Below, one piece after another: positions 2,440 through 18,292 of a DNA stretch of 64,000 nt. Position 1 is the first letter of the stretch, and every line of letters starts with the position of its first letter. Below the pieces are notes generated by a model. It was not told where the DNA came from, ran no database searches, and saw nothing but the letters and a program-made list of their open reading frames with translations. The position numbers and the translations under genes are program-made. The DNA is from Acidobacteriota bacterium (GTDB taxonomy: Bacteria; Acidobacteriota; Blastocatellia; Chloracidobacteriales; Chloracidobacteriaceae), in assembly GCA_016208495.1 (NCBI GenBank), contig JACQXX010000079.1, positions 1 to 64,000 of the forward strand. Direction: 5' to 3'.

Positions 2440-5400
2440 ATGTTGGCTCACCTCAAAACAATCATCGCACGTGGTATTATAAGTTGGGTTCTGCTTTCTG
2501 GCTCAGGCCACAGCAGTGCTTCTTCATCCCTCCAAATCTCTCAGTTTCAAACTCTCAGCCCCGGCCAAAAACATACCTATCCGCTCACGCTCGAAGCCAA
2601 CGACTTTCTCAACCTGGTTGTGGAACAAAAAGGAATTGACGTGGTAGTGCGCCTTGTCGGGCTGGATGGAAAAATACTGATTGAAGTTGACAGCCCCAAT
2701 GGCACCCAGGGACCGGAACCGCTTGCGTTCATTGCCGAACTGGCTGGTGACTACACCCTGGAAGTCGAATCACCAGCCAAAACCGGCTCACCGGGAGCAT
2801 ACAAAATAATTCTGGATCCGTTTCGCCCCGCCACGGACCAGGATCGCTCACGGCTTGAAATCAACATGCTCCTGGCAAAAATCCAAACCCTTTCGCTGGC
2901 AGGTGACGACGATGATGCCCTGCCACTGGCAATTGAAGCACTTGAGAAAAGTGAAAAAACTTTTGGTGAAAACCATGTCCTCACCGCTGAAAGTCTTCAG
3001 CACCTCGCACGGATCTATCAAAACAAAGGGGCTTACGCTCAGGCGGAACCACTCTCTTTGAGATCGCTGGCCATTCGGGAAAAAATGCTCGGCGCTGAGC
3101 ATCCGGACGTGGCCAACAGTCTGAACAATCTGGCCGGGCTCTATTATTTGAAAGGAGAATACAATCGAGCGGAGGTCCTGTTTGAACGGTCGCTGGCAAT
3201 TCGGGAAAAAAGACTGGGAAGCGATCACCCACTGCTGGCCGTGGGCCTCAATAATCTGGCTTCGGTTTACAAGGCCAAAGGCGAATATCCAAAAGCTGAG
3301 TCAATGTATTTGAAGTCACTGGCGGTTCGGGAGAAGGCGACTGGGGTTGATCAGTTGGAAGTTGCCCAAACGCTCAACAATCTGGCTTTGGTTTATGAAA
3401 TCCTGGGTGATTACACCAAAGCCGAACCACTCCATCTGAAATCGCTGGCGATCCGGGAGAAAATCTTGGGACCTCATCACCGGAGTGTCGCGGTGAGTCT
3501 CAACAATCTCGCTGAGTTCTACCGAAGGAAAGGTGATGACACCAGAGCTGAGCCGCTCTACCTGAGATCACTGGCCATCTGGGAGAAAACATTAGGCCCC
3601 GACCATCCAGACCTGGCTTTCAGCCTCAACAACCTGGCCAGTCTCTATGAAACCCGAGGCGATTACACCAAAGCCGAACCGCTGTATCTGAGAGCGTTCG
3701 CCATCCGCGAGAACGTGCTGGGCCCAGATCACCCTGATGTCGCTCAAAGCCATAACAATCTGGCCGGGCTGTATCAAACCAAAGGTGATTATTCAAAAGC
3801 CGAACCGCTGTATCTGAAAGCACTGGCAATTCGAGAAAAAGCACTGGGTGCCAATCACCCGGAAGTTGCCCAAAGCCTCAACAATCTCGCGAATCTGGCT
3901 GAGGTCACCGGTGATTTTACCAAAGCGGAATCCCTGTATTTAAAATCGGTGGCCATTTGGAAGCAAACACTGGGTGGAAATCACCCCAACATTGCCCAAA
4001 GTTTCAATAATCTGGCACGGCTCTATCAAACCAAAGGCGACACCGCTCAGGCCATTCGGTTTCTGACCGAGTGTAATGAGGCAACCGAGCGTGACCTCAT
4101 GCGGAATCTGATCGCCGGTTCTGAAAATCAGAAAGCGCTCTACCTGAAGCAAACCGGCGCCCGGACAGATCAGACGATTTCACTTCACGTCCAGGCGGCA
4201 CCACAGGATAAGGACGCCTTGCAGGCGGCACTAACCGTCATCTTGCGGCGGAAAGGACGGGCGCTGGATGCGATGGCCAGTGCTATCGCGGTGTTAAGAA
4301 ATCGAAAAGACGAACCAACCCAAAAGTTGCTGGACACGTATGCAAGTCTGGCCAGCCAAATTTCAGTCCTCACTCTTCAAGGTCCTGGCCAAAAGAATCT
4401 GGAAACGTACCTGGCCGACATCCAGGCATTGGAAGTACACAAAGATCAACTTGAAACCGAAATCAGCCGCCGGTCAGCGGAATTTCAGGCACAGACAACG
4501 CCGATTACCCTGGAGGCGATCCGGGAGTTGATTCCCGCCAATGCCAGTCTGGTCGAATATGCGATTTATCGCCCGTTCAACCCAAAAACCGCCCAGTACG
4601 GCGGCTTCCAATATGTAGCCTATGTATTTGATCAGAAGGGAGTTATCCAGTTTGTTGATTTAGGTGAAGCCGAGCCGATTGACAAAGCCGTGGTTGCTTT
4701 CCGCATGATGGTGCGCGGCACATCAACCCGTTTTTCAAAAGATGCAGCCTCAGCGGCGCAGGAACTTGACCGACTCGTCATGCAGCCAGTGCGAAACCTG
4801 ATCGGGTCAGCCACTCACTTGCTGATTTCACCGGATGGAACCTTAAATCTCATTCCCTTTTCAGCCCTGGTTGATCCCCAGGGGAAGTTTCTGGTTGAAA
4901 ACTATACTGTGACCTATCTTACCAGCGGACGTGACCTGCTCCGGCTCAAGGTCAAACTTCCGGCTCAGGAACCGCCGGTCATCATTGCCAACCCCAATTA
5001 TGGGAACGGCGCCGGACCGATCCTGGCGGGTCACCCACTTGCCCCCTTGCCACAGCTACCTGAAACAGCCAAAGAAGGAAAGAACATCCAGACCCTTTTG
5101 AAAAGAGCCGGCTTTGTCTCTGGACGCAAGGCGACTGAACACTTCGTCAAATCCATTCGGCGACCCGAAGTGCTCCACATTGCGACCCACGGCTATTTTC
5201 TGGAGGACGCCCGCAAAGAACGAACCACTGAGGCAACCCGAGATTTAAGACTTCAAACCGTGGGAGATCTTGAAAGCTGGCGGATTGCCAACCCACTCTT
5301 GCGGTCATGGTTGTTCTTTAGCGGTGCCAATCGGGGTGGACAGGCCGACAATGATGGCACCATGACCGCGCTCGAAGCCGCCCAACTCGACTTGTGGGGC

Positions 5401-12860: not shown

Positions 12861-15089
12861 ATGTATGTAAAGCAGTCCATCCAATTCGGAGGACGTGAGT
12901 TTTGTCTTGAAACTGGAAAAATTGCCAAACAGGCCAACGGATCGGTCATTGTGCGCTATGGTGACACCGTGTTGCTCGTGACGGCAGTCGGCGCCGCTGA
13001 ACAACGCCCCGATCAATCCTTTTTTCCATTGACGGTTGATTATCGCGAATACGGCTATGCCTCAGGCCGGATTCCAGGTGGCTATTTCAAACGTGAAGGC
13101 CGCCCCACCGAGCGTGAAACCCTGATTTGCCGGCTGATTGATCGCCCAATCCGGCCCCTGTTCCCAGAAGGCTACATGGCTGAAACCCAGGTTATCGCCA
13201 TGGTGATCTCGGCAGATACCAACAATGATCCAGATGTGCTGGCGATTACTGGCGCATCCACGGCCCTCTTTATTTCAGATCTCCCATTTCATACCCCAAT
13301 TGCCGGGGTGCGGGTCGGTCTGATTGATGGTCAGTTTGTGGTCAATCCCAACTACCAGGACATGCGCAATTCGGAACTGAATCTGGTTCTGGCTGGCAGC
13401 GAAGAAGCGATTGTGATGGTCGAAGCCGGCGCCAAGGAAGTTTCGGAAGAAACCATGGTCAAAGCCATGGTCTTTGGACATTCGGAAATTAAGAAACTGT
13501 GCGCCTTGCAACGCGAACTGCGTGAAAAGGCTGGAAAAGCGAAACGCGAAGTCGCACCGCCTGAACTGGATGCGGAACAACTGGCTGAAATCGAAGCCAA
13601 TTTTGCTGGCGATATTCGGACCGCGCTCGATACCCGCAATCGGGACAAACTGACCAGCTATGCGGAGCTGGATGCGCTCAAAAAACGAATCGCCGAATCG
13701 TATCCGGAAGATGCCCCGGCCAAACGCAGCATGGCCAAACAAATCTTTGAACACCTCAAAGAACAAATTTTCCGTGATGACATCCTCAACAACCGCCGCC
13801 GTCCAGATGGTCGCCGATTTGGAGAAGTTCGCCCAATCAGCATCGAAGTCGGCTGGCTGCCGCGCACTCACGGAAGTTCCCTGTTTACCCGTGGCGAAAC
13901 CCAGGCGATTGTGACCACCACGCTTGGAACCAGTGAAGATATTCAGTACCTCGATGATCTCGAAACCGGCGAAGTTAAGCGGAACTTCATTTTGAACTAT
14001 AACTTCCCACCGTTTAGCGTGGGGGAAACCGGTCGGATGGGCACCCCTGGCCGGCGTGAAGTTGGTCACGGCGCACTGGCGCATCGTGCGATTCAGGCCG
14101 TGCTCCCCGGAGATGAGTTCCCGTACGTGCTCCGTGTGGTTTCAGACATCACCGAATCCAATGGATCTTCTTCGATGGCAACGATTTGCGGTGGTATTCT
14201 GTCGTTGATGGATGCGGGTGTGCCGATCAAAGCGCCGGTGGCTGGGGTTGCGATGGGTCTGGTGATGAGCGACAAGAAATATGCCATTTTGACTGACATC
14301 GCTGGTGCCGAAGACCACTATGGCGATATGGATTTCAAAGTCGCGGGAACGGCCAACGGGATCACCGCCCTCCAGATGGATATTAAAGTCAAAGGTCTGA
14401 ATGCTCAGATTCTGGCCGATGCACTGGCCCAGGCCAAAGAAGGCCGGATGCACATTTTAGGGAAAATGGCCGAAGTTCTGGTCGCGCCGCGCGCCGCAAT
14501 CAACCCACTTGCCCCACGCATCATGACGATTCAAATTCCAGTCGCCAAAATCCGCGAAGTGATCGGTGCGGGTGGGAAGGTTGTTCGTGGAATTGTCGAA
14601 AAAACCGGTGCCAAAATTGACATCGAAGATACTGGCCGCGTGACGATTGCCGCTTCCGATACCGAAGCTGGCGAACGTGCCAAAGCGATGATCGAAGCCA
14701 TTATCGAAGAAGTCGAAGTCGGCAAAACCTATCTCGGCACCGTCACGCGACTGGCTGATTTTGGCGCCTTTGTCGAAGTGCTGCCAGGAACGGAAGGGCT
14801 GCTTCATATCTCCGAAGTTGCTAACTACCGTGTGCGCAGCATCCACGACGAACTCAAGGAAGGTCAGCAGATTATGGTGAAGTGTCTCAGCACTGATGCC
14901 AGCGGCAAAATCCGATTGAGCCGCAAAGCTCTGTTGACCGACGCCGATGGCGGCCCCAAAGCCAACGGCAATGGATCTGAAGAAGCTTCAGCCGCCCCGG
15001 AACGACAGGAACGCGAACCGCGTGAAGAACGTGAACGCGAACCACGTCACCGTGGTGGTGGAGACCGTCGCCCACCCCGGCGCAAATAA
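12861..15089 (+). CDS. pnp: Polyribonucleotide nucleotidyltransferase (PNPase)
   Basis: 742 residues: two RNase PH core domains with a helical domain between them, then a KH domain (IREVIGAGGKVVRGI, about 565-575) and an S1 domain (ADFGAFVEVLPGTEGLLHI). It ends in an Arg/Glu/Pro-rich tail of about 45 residues that looks disordered. PNPase degrades RNA 3' to 5' with phosphate. The start at 12861 has AGAGGAGA upstream. The 250-base gap after rpsO contains GC-rich hairpins (for instance around 12688-12705) that could serve PNPase autocontrol or RNase III processing, as known in E. coli; that is inference. Confidence 0.97.
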   Translation: MYVKQSIQFGGREFCLETGKIAKQANGSVIVRYGDTVLLVTAVGAAEQRPDQSFFPLTVDYREYGYASGRIPGGYFKREGRPTERETLICRLIDRPIRPLFPEGYMAETQVIAMVISADTNNDPDVLAITGASTALFISDLPFHTPIAGVRVGLIDGQFVVNPNYQDMRNSELNLVLAGSEEAIVMVEAGAKEVSEETMVKAMVFGHSEIKKLCALQRELREKAGKAKREVAPPELDAEQLAEIEANFAGDIRTALDTRNRDKLTSYAELDALKKRIAESYPEDAPAKRSMAKQIFEHLKEQIFRDDILNNRRRPDGRRFGEVRPISIEVGWLPRTHGSSLFTRGETQAIVTTTLGTSEDIQYLDDLETGEVKRNFILNYNFPPFSVGETGRMGTPGRREVGHGALAHRAIQAVLPGDEFPYVLRVVSDITESNGSSSMATICGGILSLMDAGVPIKAPVAGVAMGLVMSDKKYAILTDIAGAEDHYGDMDFKVAGTANGITALQMDIKVKGLNAQILADALAQAKEGRMHILGKMAEVLVAPRAAINPLAPRIMTIQIPVAKIREVIGAGGKVVRGIVEKTGAKIDIEDTGRVTIAASDTEAGERAKAMIEAIIEEVEVGKTYLGTVTRLADFGAFVEVLPGTEGLLHISEVANYRVRSIHDELKEGQQIMVKCLSTDASGKIRLSRKALLTDADGGPKANGNGSEEASAAPERQEREPREEREREPRHRGGGDRRPPRRK

Positions 15090-15090
15090 G

Positions 15091-15257
15091 AATGAAGAAT
15101 GAAGAATTGAGAATGAAGAAAATGAAGAATGAAGAATAAAAAATAGAGAGCGGCTCAAAACGCGGTTCTCTTCAGGCTCAGCTCTGGAATTCTCAATGCT
15201 TCATTCTCAATTCTCAATTCTTCATTCTCAATGCTTCATTCTCAATGCTTCATTCGT
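15091..15257. repeat. GAATGAA/GAATTGA heptamer arrays in inverted pair
   Basis: Copies of GAATGAA and GAATTGA (15091-15146) are followed, after about 40 bases, by the complementary TTCATTC/TCAATTC units (15188-15255). The right arm ends only a few bases before the purN start codon. Confidence 0.9.
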
Positions 15258-15867: not shown

Positions 15868-16201
15868 CAATTGCCAGCCAGGAGAATCGGCTGGTACTGG
15901 CTGGAATGAACTCTGGCACCAATCCATCTGCTAATTTGATCAGGCCGCACACAATCTTCTTGAAAAAAAGTGAAAATCAATGAAAATACCTGCGCCCAGG
16001 TATTTTCAATCGTTCGCACCCACATTCACCCCAACCCAATTTACCATTCCGCCCCAATGTGCATTAAGTCGGGCAACTTGCTTTTCTTTTCGACCAGTCT
16101 TGAGTAGCAAGTACGGGAATCGTTTTTGGTTTGAGGTGACTTGTGCGCAAGGAGTTGAAGTGGGTGTCGTGTCGTCTCACGTTTTCTCAACAAGTCAATA
16201 G
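15868..16201. other. Intergenic region with one strong hairpin
   Basis: No gene. TGAAAATACCTG (15981-15992) and CAGGTATTTTCA (15997-16008) form a perfect 12-bp stem with a four-base loop, possibly a terminator for purN. The last part borders the hairpin-rich RNA that begins at 16202; any guide sequence of that RNA would lie here. Confidence 0.55.
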
Positions 16202-16635
16202 ACTCGGCCCGCAAGGGCCGAGCTTGAGTCGTGTCCCCACAACGCCATCCTGATGGATGGCCGCTGTGGGGAGAATGGCTCAAGTTCCGGTTGACCAGAT
16301 CCCCGTGCAAATCACGGGAACCGATTGGGAAGAATCGATAGGTACCTGCGGATGCCGCCTCAGTCCGCTGCTCTACGGTGACCGGTTAAACAGGCATGGG
16401 AGTCAGTGCCAGTGCCGGTCACGGCAAACCTTCCCAAATCCGGTCGAGAGGACGTCGAATCCGGTCAGCGGTCACAGTCGGACCGGTACGCACTACCCGA
16501 CGCAAGTCGGTGCGTGACGTGAATCTTTCACGTCACATCTCAAGCGGGAGGAATTCGTTCTTCCCGCTTTCACACTCACACCCAAGCAGGAGCGGCGTTT
16601 CCTCCCGGCCCAGCCAGGACCGGGTCTCCACGCCG
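16202..16635 (+). ncRNA. HEARO/omega-RNA-like structured RNA without its iscB
   Basis: At least ten stem-loops follow one another with little gap. The stems are 16203-16210/16215-16222, 16235-16241/16265-16271 with an inner 16245-16250/16255-16260, 16302-16307/16313-16318, 16322-16326/16333-16337, 16348-16352/16364-16368, 16378-16385/16415-16422, 16461-16466/16481-16486, 16497-16501/16506-16510, 16514-16523/16527-16536, 16542-16549/16562-16569, and the last at 16593-16598/16630-16635. No frame through it looks coding. The order and several loop sequences (for example the AAGCGGGAGGAATTC hairpin and the final CGGCGT..ACGCCG hairpin) match my memory of HEARO RNAs, now known as IscB omega RNAs. 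No IscB (RRXRR, RuvC, HNH) frame is present on either side. The structure is seen; the family name is recognition without a covariance search. Confidence 0.68.
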
Positions 16636-16643
16636 AAAAGAGG

Positions 16644-17867
16644 ATGAAGCTGTGTCCAAAGTGCAACACGCAATGGGATGATTTCAAACGATTTTGCCCG
16701 TACGATGGGACATTTCTCCCGTCACTGGCTCACCCACCTGTGGAATCTACGGCTGAACCAACCAACAGCACCAGTGACTTCCGGACCTCCCAAATCGGGT
16801 ATGCTTCTGACCAGCCTCAACTGGCAGGCTTGCCATCAGAAGGAGCACCCGTCTTGGGAATGACAGGTGTTCCAGCCCCAGTCTCAGTTTCAGCCGCCAC
16901 CACCAGTGCCCAAACACCCTCGCCCGCCAGTCCATCTCCACCTCTTTGGACAACCGACGATACCCCAACGGTCAAAGCCAGCCATCCACATGCAGTCTGG
17001 CCCGCTTCTTATCAACCGGGTCAGACCCCAAGAGAAGGGGTACCCGCAATCCCGGTTGATGATGACCAGCTCTTTCCACTTCAAGAAGCATCAGCTCCCA
17101 ATTCAGGGCCAATCACCAGAGAAACTCCAACCGCTCCAGTGACCGCGCCTGAAATGCCATTCACACCAGGTGCCTGGGGTGGCGACTCACCTGAAGATGT
17201 CGGATTTCTCTTTGATGCCACACATCAGGCTCCAAATCCAGATGCGGTTCCAACCACACCAGCTTCACCACTGCCCGGACAATCATCCGGTGGAATAATC
17301 CATCGTGACCTGGAAGCCACGGCCAAAGCTCCTCCGGCTGATATTCCGAAAACCGTGAGTGTTTTTGAAGTTGCCAGAGAAGCCCGAGACCGCATGCGCC
17401 GCTCACAGAGCATGCCGGCTTTAGTCGAACCAAGCCGTCCCAAACGCACGCATGCCGAGTATTTTCAGCTCCTGAACGAACGAAATCGGATTATCCAGCA
17501 ATTTGTTGAAGTTTTAGTCAAACAAGGCTTTTCATATAAAAGCAGTTACAGCAACAAAGATGACCATCTGATTTATCGGTTTGATCTTTCATTCGGAGAC
17601 GCCGACGATCACCGGACATTTCCAGTCTCAGTTGCCCTGCACCGAAAACCGTCTTATTCCGTCCTGGTTTCAATTGATTTGTTTGAGATTGGTCGAACGC
17701 TTCCCGAACGAACGAAGCGAACGGAATTGATTGGCGGAAAGGTAGAACGAACTGACCATGGCATGTATTTCCATATTGATGCCACTGAAGACCTCCCCAA
17801 CGAATACCTGATGCAATGGCTGGACGAAAATCTGAAGAGCATTTTCCGCATCACGTACGAGAACTGA
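16644..17867 (+). CDS. Zinc-ribbon protein with Pro-rich linker, unknown function
   Basis: 407 residues beginning MKLCPKCNTQW with a second pair CPYDG, a short N-terminal zinc ribbon (the last cysteine of the fourth position is replaced by the PYDG turn). Residues about 30-260 are Pro/Thr/Ser-rich and disordered. Residues about 265-407 form a globular domain (AEYFQLLNERNRIIQQFVEVL through EYLMQWLDENLKSIFR) that I do not recognise. AGAGG just before the ATG comes from the last hairpin tail of the RNA at 16202-16635, so the gene may be read through from it. It resembles the next gene in general plan (zinc ribbon plus long Pro-rich part). Cytoplasmic; function unknown. Confidence 0.8.
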   Translation: MKLCPKCNTQWDDFKRFCPYDGTFLPSLAHPPVESTAEPTNSTSDFRTSQIGYASDQPQLAGLPSEGAPVLGMTGVPAPVSVSAATTSAQTPSPASPSPPLWTTDDTPTVKASHPHAVWPASYQPGQTPREGVPAIPVDDDQLFPLQEASAPNSGPITRETPTAPVTAPEMPFTPGAWGGDSPEDVGFLFDATHQAPNPDAVPTTPASPLPGQSSGGIIHRDLEATAKAPPADIPKTVSVFEVAREARDRMRRSQSMPALVEPSRPKRTHAEYFQLLNERNRIIQQFVEVLVKQGFSYKSSYSNKDDHLIYRFDLSFGDADDHRTFPVSVALHRKPSYSVLVSIDLFEIGRTLPERTKRTELIGGKVERTDHGMYFHIDATEDLPNEYLMQWLDENLKSIFRITYEN

Positions 17868-17873
17868 TCAGTT

Positions 17874-18030
17874 AAGAGCGAGTAGTGAGTAGCGAGTGGT
17901 GAGTAGTCAGGCAAGGTGAGGAACAGAAAGTAAGGAGGGAATGGACGATTCCAGTTCCTCGGTCACCTTGTCACTCTGTCACCCTGTCATCCTGTCACCC
18001 TGTCACCCTGTCACCCTGTCACTTTGTCCG
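17874..18030. repeat. GAGTAGC-type and TGTCACCC-type tandem repeats
   Basis: GAGTAGTGAGTAGC units (17874-17910) are followed by TGTCACCC octamers (17966-18023). Neither has its mate here. The same classes recur at 30822, 44876 and 53371. Confidence 0.85.
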
Positions 18031-18092
18031 CCTGCCCCTGAATCAGAAGGTACCGAGAAATTATTTGGTGGCGACCAAAATCAGCGGTATAC

Positions 18093-18219
18093 TTGGAGTG
18101 CGGCTCACTTGACGCCGCTTTCGATCTTCAGCAACTTCACTCCATCTCTTTTTTCTTTACCAGCTTAGGCAGTGTCAAGCCGTTGCGATGAAAGCGGCGT
18201 CAAGTGAGCCGCACTCCAA
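18093..18219. repeat. Perfect 30-bp inverted repeat, MITE-like
   Basis: Arms 18093-18122 and 18190-18219 are exact complements separated by 67 bases. The arm contains GGAGTGCGGCTCACTTGACG; a shorter relative is at 30318-30362. It lies in the spacer before the 18293 gene. Confidence 0.85.
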
Positions 18220-18292
18220 AAATATTACCCGACGAGCTTTCTCAGTCTGCGACCTCTGAATCTGATTTTTTAGACGCGGCAGGAGACCATCT

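Follow-up and report, generated by a model that had tools for sequence, protein, structure and literature searches.

The 64,000-nt window analyzed here—contig JACQXX010000079.1, positions 1 to 64,000, of the Acidobacteriota assembly GCA_016208495.1 (contig C79 in our numbering)—carries at 16194–16643 on the plus strand a 450-bp non-autonomous element of the IscB family, which starts with GTCAA, ends with ..GAGG and contains a complete omega RNA, i.e., the guide RNA that normally lies upstream of the nuclease gene iscB. From left to right, the element consists of the HEARO/omega RNA core (16194–16459), a 3′ hairpin of the omega RNA (16460–16487), a linker with three hairpins (16493–16583) and a right end (16584–16643), all on the plus strand. 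The ATG directly behind it opens a gene on the same strand (16644–17867), whose 407-aa product has a zinc-ribbon-like N terminus and no Pfam or NCBIfam match. The original prediction had placed an orphan HEARO/omega RNA-like locus at 16202–16635; the end of the last hairpin (~16635) and the ATG at 16644 stand, whereas the start was set eight bases too late and the element runs on to 16643. No iscB is found in the window, as had been claimed; the five iscB genes of the genome are on other contigs. The locus is an orphan omega RNA and not a complete IscB locus.

The family name, which had been given from recall, is borne out by an Rfam covariance-model search of the window: RF02033 (HEARO) matches 16194–16459 (+) over the complete model (1–211) with 93.7 bits and E = 7.7e-18, the Rfam gathering score being 83, and it is the sole Rfam family at its gathering threshold within these 64 kb. 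The predicted fold of 16194–16643 reaches −214.1 kcal/mol versus −164.5 ± 6.4 kcal/mol for 100 dinucleotide shuffles (z = −7.8, 0 of 100 as good) and shows about 12 hairpin loops, in agreement with the earlier claim of at least ten consecutive stem-loops. Both ends of the element bear a palindromic subterminal structure—a hairpin at ~16204–16221 on the left and one at 16593–16635 on the right. Across the 12 orphan copies of the element described below, 20 of 133 predicted base pairs are altered on both sides. These compensatory changes lie mostly in the 3′ hairpins and less in the omega RNA core; they include the hairpin that follows the Rfam model on its 3′ side, where CCGGTC/GACCGG stands against TCAACC/GGTTGA in other copies, and the first stem of the linker. 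The only reading frame that crosses the element (83 aa, 16396–16647) differs in frame in the other copies; a coding reading was hence rejected and the region is treated as non-coding, as the original prediction had it.

The genome, with 8.38 Mb in 177 contigs, contains 17 HEARO matches, 14 of which exceed the gathering score. Five copies immediately precede an IscB gene (contigs C19, C47, C56, C88, and C91) and 12 are orphans; a weak RRXRR match on C72 (E 0.67) was excluded from the IscB count. All five genes are open over 414–425 aa. The three IscB proteins that were scanned each bear RRXRR and HNH domains and reach 310–320 bits with the NCBI model NF040563 ("RNA-guided endonuclease IscB"), for which the cut-off is 175. 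The best solved relatives are IscB structures including 7xht, 8csz, and 7utn. One copy (C47) was aligned to these, and its RuvC Asp, RuvC-II Glu, HNH HH, and RuvC-III Asp are kept. An IscB elsewhere in the genome, as the original prediction had considered, is thus at hand: besides the 16 other HEARO copies, there are five intact-looking iscB genes in trans.

In a blast search of the own genome with the 454-bp stretch of element plus ATGA, orphans are matched over their full length exactly 12 times, and fragments are absent. These copies align from GTCAA (16194) to ..GCCGAARAKAGR (16643) and diverge completely outside, with a mean identity of 91% in the left part and 88% in the right end. The earlier notion of a stand-alone omega RNA is correct in that no iscB adjoins it, but this RNA is no separate RNA gene; it makes up most of a transposable element that is present in 12 copies, all with exact ends. 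The five iscB elements, 1.60–1.62 kb in the four that were measured, match the orphan in two blocks only: positions 1–299 (75–92% identical), which hold the left end and the omega RNA, and positions 391–454 (84–95%), the last 64 bp, which hold the right end. In the more divergent iscB elements, the left block ends between 288 and 313. As both end blocks are common to the orphans and the iscB elements and the gene is replaced, the orphan has the anatomy of an internally deleted non-autonomous derivative.

What replaces iscB is a 91-bp linker (element positions 300–390) that is unmatched in the iscB elements. Its identity among the 12 orphans is low (mean 61%, minimum 40%); its three hairpins are present in 12/12 copies with z from −3.8 to −8.0 versus mononucleotide shuffles. 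T-rich sequence follows the last linker hairpin in three copies (L009, L013, and L014). A simple scan finds three terminator-like sites in the linker region of L014 versus 0.8 expected, two of them in the last hairpin on the plus strand, and likewise terminator-like sequence in an orphan of the sister family (L067); on the plus strand of the window copy, it finds none. These features suggest that the linker might give the omega RNA its 3′ end.

The pentamer ATGAA lies directly 3′ of all 17 copies (12 orphans and five iscB elements), whereas the left flank is unconserved and a target duplication is absent. For the window copy, this motif (16644–16648, +) is at the same time the start codon of the downstream gene and the predicted target-adjacent motif (TAM). 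Orthologues of this gene in seven genomes of the same family (G001, G004–G009; 33–50% identity) all begin with ATGAAR and are free of the element upstream—hence, ATGAA belongs to the host target and not to the element. A comparable case is gatB, whose start codon is directly preceded by an iscB element (C19); gatB of the closest relative (G001) begins with ATGACG and is element-free. In many bacteria, gatB is essential.

The same comparison bears on the proposal that the RNA has been taken over as a leader of the 16644 gene, for example as a cis-acting 5′ untranslated region controlling the zinc-ribbon protein. The element does lie in sense orientation directly before the start codon and parts the gene from its ancestral upstream region. 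The seven orthologues, however, have no such leader, so that no conserved association of gene and element is seen, the 5′ flank is different at every copy, and the eleven other copies precede unrelated genes or none. For the latter reason, a leader role specific to this gene, which the original prediction had offered as one option, is very unlikely.

Insertion at start codons is more widespread, though. With the element removed in silico, nine of the 17 sites turn out to be the ATG of a frame that spans 150 codons or more and has an in-frame stop a short way upstream. These are six of the 12 orphans and three of the five iscB copies, the latter at gatB and at frames of 830 and 246 codons. The background was taken from about 290 kb of the genome: start-like sites make up 6.9% of all ATGAA there and 23% of the ATGAA that lie outside long frames, and the observed number exceeds both (P = 5e-7 and P = 0.007, respectively). 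This excess is mostly explained by the motif itself and by the loss of insertions that break genes; an extra preference for start codons beyond motif and selection is possible and weakly supported. Several joined flanks bear a ribosome-binding site at about the expected distance—AGGAAATACTA before the ATG in L007, AAAGGAGAGCTGAT in L016, and GAGGAGT in L014—and the element hence parts a ribosome-binding site from its start codon. The target ATGA contains the TGA stop codon of iscB in four of the five full copies. If such an ATGA also starts a host gene, the two genes overlap as is typical of translational coupling, and iscB might thus be coupled to the host gene. At gatB (L024, oriented position 5010–5014, G000:C19), for instance, the iscB TGA overlaps the gatB ATG. 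Likewise, in another genome (L068, G013:C82) an iscB lies between hisG-like and hisD-like genes, named by eye, and its TGA overlaps the next ATG.

Multiple exact-ended copies in unrelated flanks, a fixed motif, no duplication, and palindromic ends: judged by these sequence features, the element is of the IS200/IS605 type and non-autonomous, similar to palindrome-associated transposable elements (PATEs). In the known IS200/IS605 scheme, a fixed motif likewise lies beside one end and no duplication is formed (PMC7290912). Here, the motif is found on the right-hand side of the RNA and reads TTCAT on the other strand, which mirrors the arrangement of TnpB elements and fits a 3′ TAM for IscB. The genome contains nine Y1_Tnp matches above the cut-off, seven of them strong. 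A link of the element to a TnpA of the same genome was considered and dropped, as the element ends are unlike the flanks, within about 1.5 kb, of all nine.

Such an internally deleted element might be a dead relic, i.e., inactive and spread by the transposase alone, with the omega RNA as a mere passenger that overlaps the left end. This overlap could suffice to keep the RNA for transposition alone, ends-only IS605 derivatives are known (PMC7290912), and no TnpA carrying the element ends was found among the Y1 matches of the genome. On the other hand, all 12 copies are full length and no fragments occur, the omega RNA core is about 91% identical among copies with its pairs kept, and the linker hairpins are kept under strong divergence. 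Moreover, a minimal ends-only element would not need an omega RNA of about 300 nt. We consider the relic explanation rather unlikely.

By analogy to the anatomy of IscB omega RNAs, the predicted guide of the window copy comprises about 16 nt of the host 5′ flank (16178–16193, +; ..CACGTTTTCTCAACAA). The 17-nt stretch of the flank that contains it is unique in the genome at 0–1 mismatches, and none of the nine best near matches is followed by ATGA. Hence, no target other than the empty site is expected; the predicted join 16193/16644 (+) reads CTCAACAA followed by ATGAAG. Trans targets in the own genome were looked for and discarded on the same grounds. Host adoption of the orphans as fixed guides, which would send IscB to other DNA for defense or gene regulation, has a precedent in the RNA-guided TldR, where, according to PMC13418256, guide-RNA systems of related transposon nucleases were adopted for regulation. 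For the orphans described here, it is highly improbable, as the genome offers the guide of the 16194 copy no further target at zero or one mismatch and the guides differ at every copy, being simply the insertion flanks.

Taken together, the locus is probably a MITE-like (miniature inverted-repeat transposable element) non-autonomous IscB transposon, whose omega RNA would work with an IscB in trans; its 5′ flank would direct it to the empty site, such that excised copies would be restored. The element ends, the copy number, the end homology to the iscB elements, the target motif, the omega RNA structure, and the intact iscB genes with matching omega RNAs are observed; transposition in trans, transcription, guide use, and cleavage we infer. 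The ancestor would have been an IscB-carrying transposon of the IS200/IS605 type, of which both ends remain, the left one including the complete omega RNA, and in which iscB was swapped for the hairpin linker. A transposase supplied in trans presumably moved the element to just upstream of an ATGAA, here the start codon at 16644. Transcription from the host upstream region would yield an RNA that begins with the host flank as guide and continues into the omega RNA scaffold. An IscB from one of the five genes elsewhere in the genome would bind this RNA and cut the empty site, defined by guide and ATGAA, as it arises on a sister chromosome upon excision; repair from the occupied copy would then restore the element. 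The occupied locus itself would be safe from cutting, because there the guide is followed by GTCAA and not by ATGAA.

Several points weigh against this explanation. Within about 1.5 kb of the nine Y1-transposase matches, no sequence similar to the element ends is seen. The targeting rule—guide at 5′, TAM at 3′—is carried over from characterized IscBs. The terminator-like linkers of some copies would argue against co-expression with the downstream gene. Finally, the closest orthologue of the 16644 gene is only 50% identical and the orthologues come from non-congeneric genomes, and the empty site is therefore a reconstruction and not base-exact.

A bolder reading, which we put forward tentatively as a possibility, joins these elements into one scheme. 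ATGAA targeting would let the element land between the ribosome-binding site and the start codon, the host promoter would make the omega RNA with the 5′ untranslated region as guide, and the orphan linker would end the transcript. The nuclease-less orphans would parasitize the IscB of the full elements, and in full copies the iscB stop codon within ATGA would couple iscB translation to the host gene.

HEARO is rare in the phylum (five of 297 sampled genomes) and frequent in the sister family, where three genomes contain 1, 6, and 13 matches. Three sister-family orphans (L063, L067, and L072) show a similar right end, GCCGAARATTG directly followed by ATGAA; the ATG there opens frames of 123, 451, and 167 codons. 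Another type of orphan HEARO (L062, L064, and L066 in G013) abuts ATAAA and not ATGAA; the TAM of some IscBs, such as NTAAA for OrufIscB (PMC13180657), resembles this motif. Beyond this genome, searches with IscB peptide patterns and a right-end pattern gave no matches in a genome contig collection, the left-end pattern none in viral contigs, and the element none in plasmids, whereby these collections may omit records very close to the window.

Further repeats lie near the element. A second MITE-like repeat at 18088–18224 has 35-bp inverted arms, 94% complementary and 67 nt apart (GGAGTGCGGCTCACTTGACGCCGC); a 24-mer of it occurs 33 times in the genome at up to three mismatches and not at all in a reversed control. 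Between a pnp-like gene and purN (15084–15255), GAATGAAGAATTGAGAATGAAG repeats face inverted copies with arms of about 30 nt that are 93% complementary. Downstream of the 16644 gene (17954–18041) lies an eight-base tandem repeat, GTCACCCT, with about 10 units.

With this element, the concept of non-autonomous elements reaches RNA-guided transposon systems: being short, with the guide scaffold retained and the nuclease lost, it lends itself to tests as a putative parasite that depends on IscB elements. Its genome also supplies, with 17 copies, a natural set of guide and target pairs. The start-codon position hints at a possible route of transcription for such guides and points to ATGAA as predicted TAM for a compact IscB family of 414–425 aa.

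Already known are HEARO RNAs, the guides of IscB, and IS605 derivatives reduced to their ends; HEARO elements have been described as inserting beside ATGA or GTGA, and omega RNAs without a nuclease gene are mentioned in the IscB literature. Compared with HEARO/IscB omega RNAs (RF02033), the orphan shares the full model match, the stem order, and the left end of an IscB-type element, but lacks iscB and continues directly into a hairpin linker and right end. With the iscB elements of the same genome, it has in common the left end with omega RNA, the right-end hairpin (16593–16635; the right end matches the terminal 64 bp of each of the five at 84–95% identity) and the ATGAA target, whereas these encode an IscB of 414–425 aa where the orphans carry the 91-bp linker. 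PATE and MITE derivatives of IS200/IS605 (PMC7290912) are equally short, keep their ends, have a palindromic end, and bear neither a transposase gene nor a target duplication; in contrast to these, the orphan retains a complete guide RNA scaffold and not the ends alone. In characterized relatives, the guide derives from the 5′ flank and guide plus TAM are cut, and for TnpB this is described in PMC11870625, citing Meers 2023, as retention of the element after excision. The orphan resembles this retention system in its flank-derived guide, a TAM that equals the insertion motif, and the predicted cleavage of the empty site; it differs in its Cas9-like order of 5′ guide and 3′ TAM and in a nuclease encoded elsewhere, its activity being predicted. 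With priority uncertain, what looks distinctive is a 12-copy family that combines a complete omega RNA with its own conserved hairpin linker and a start-codon position.
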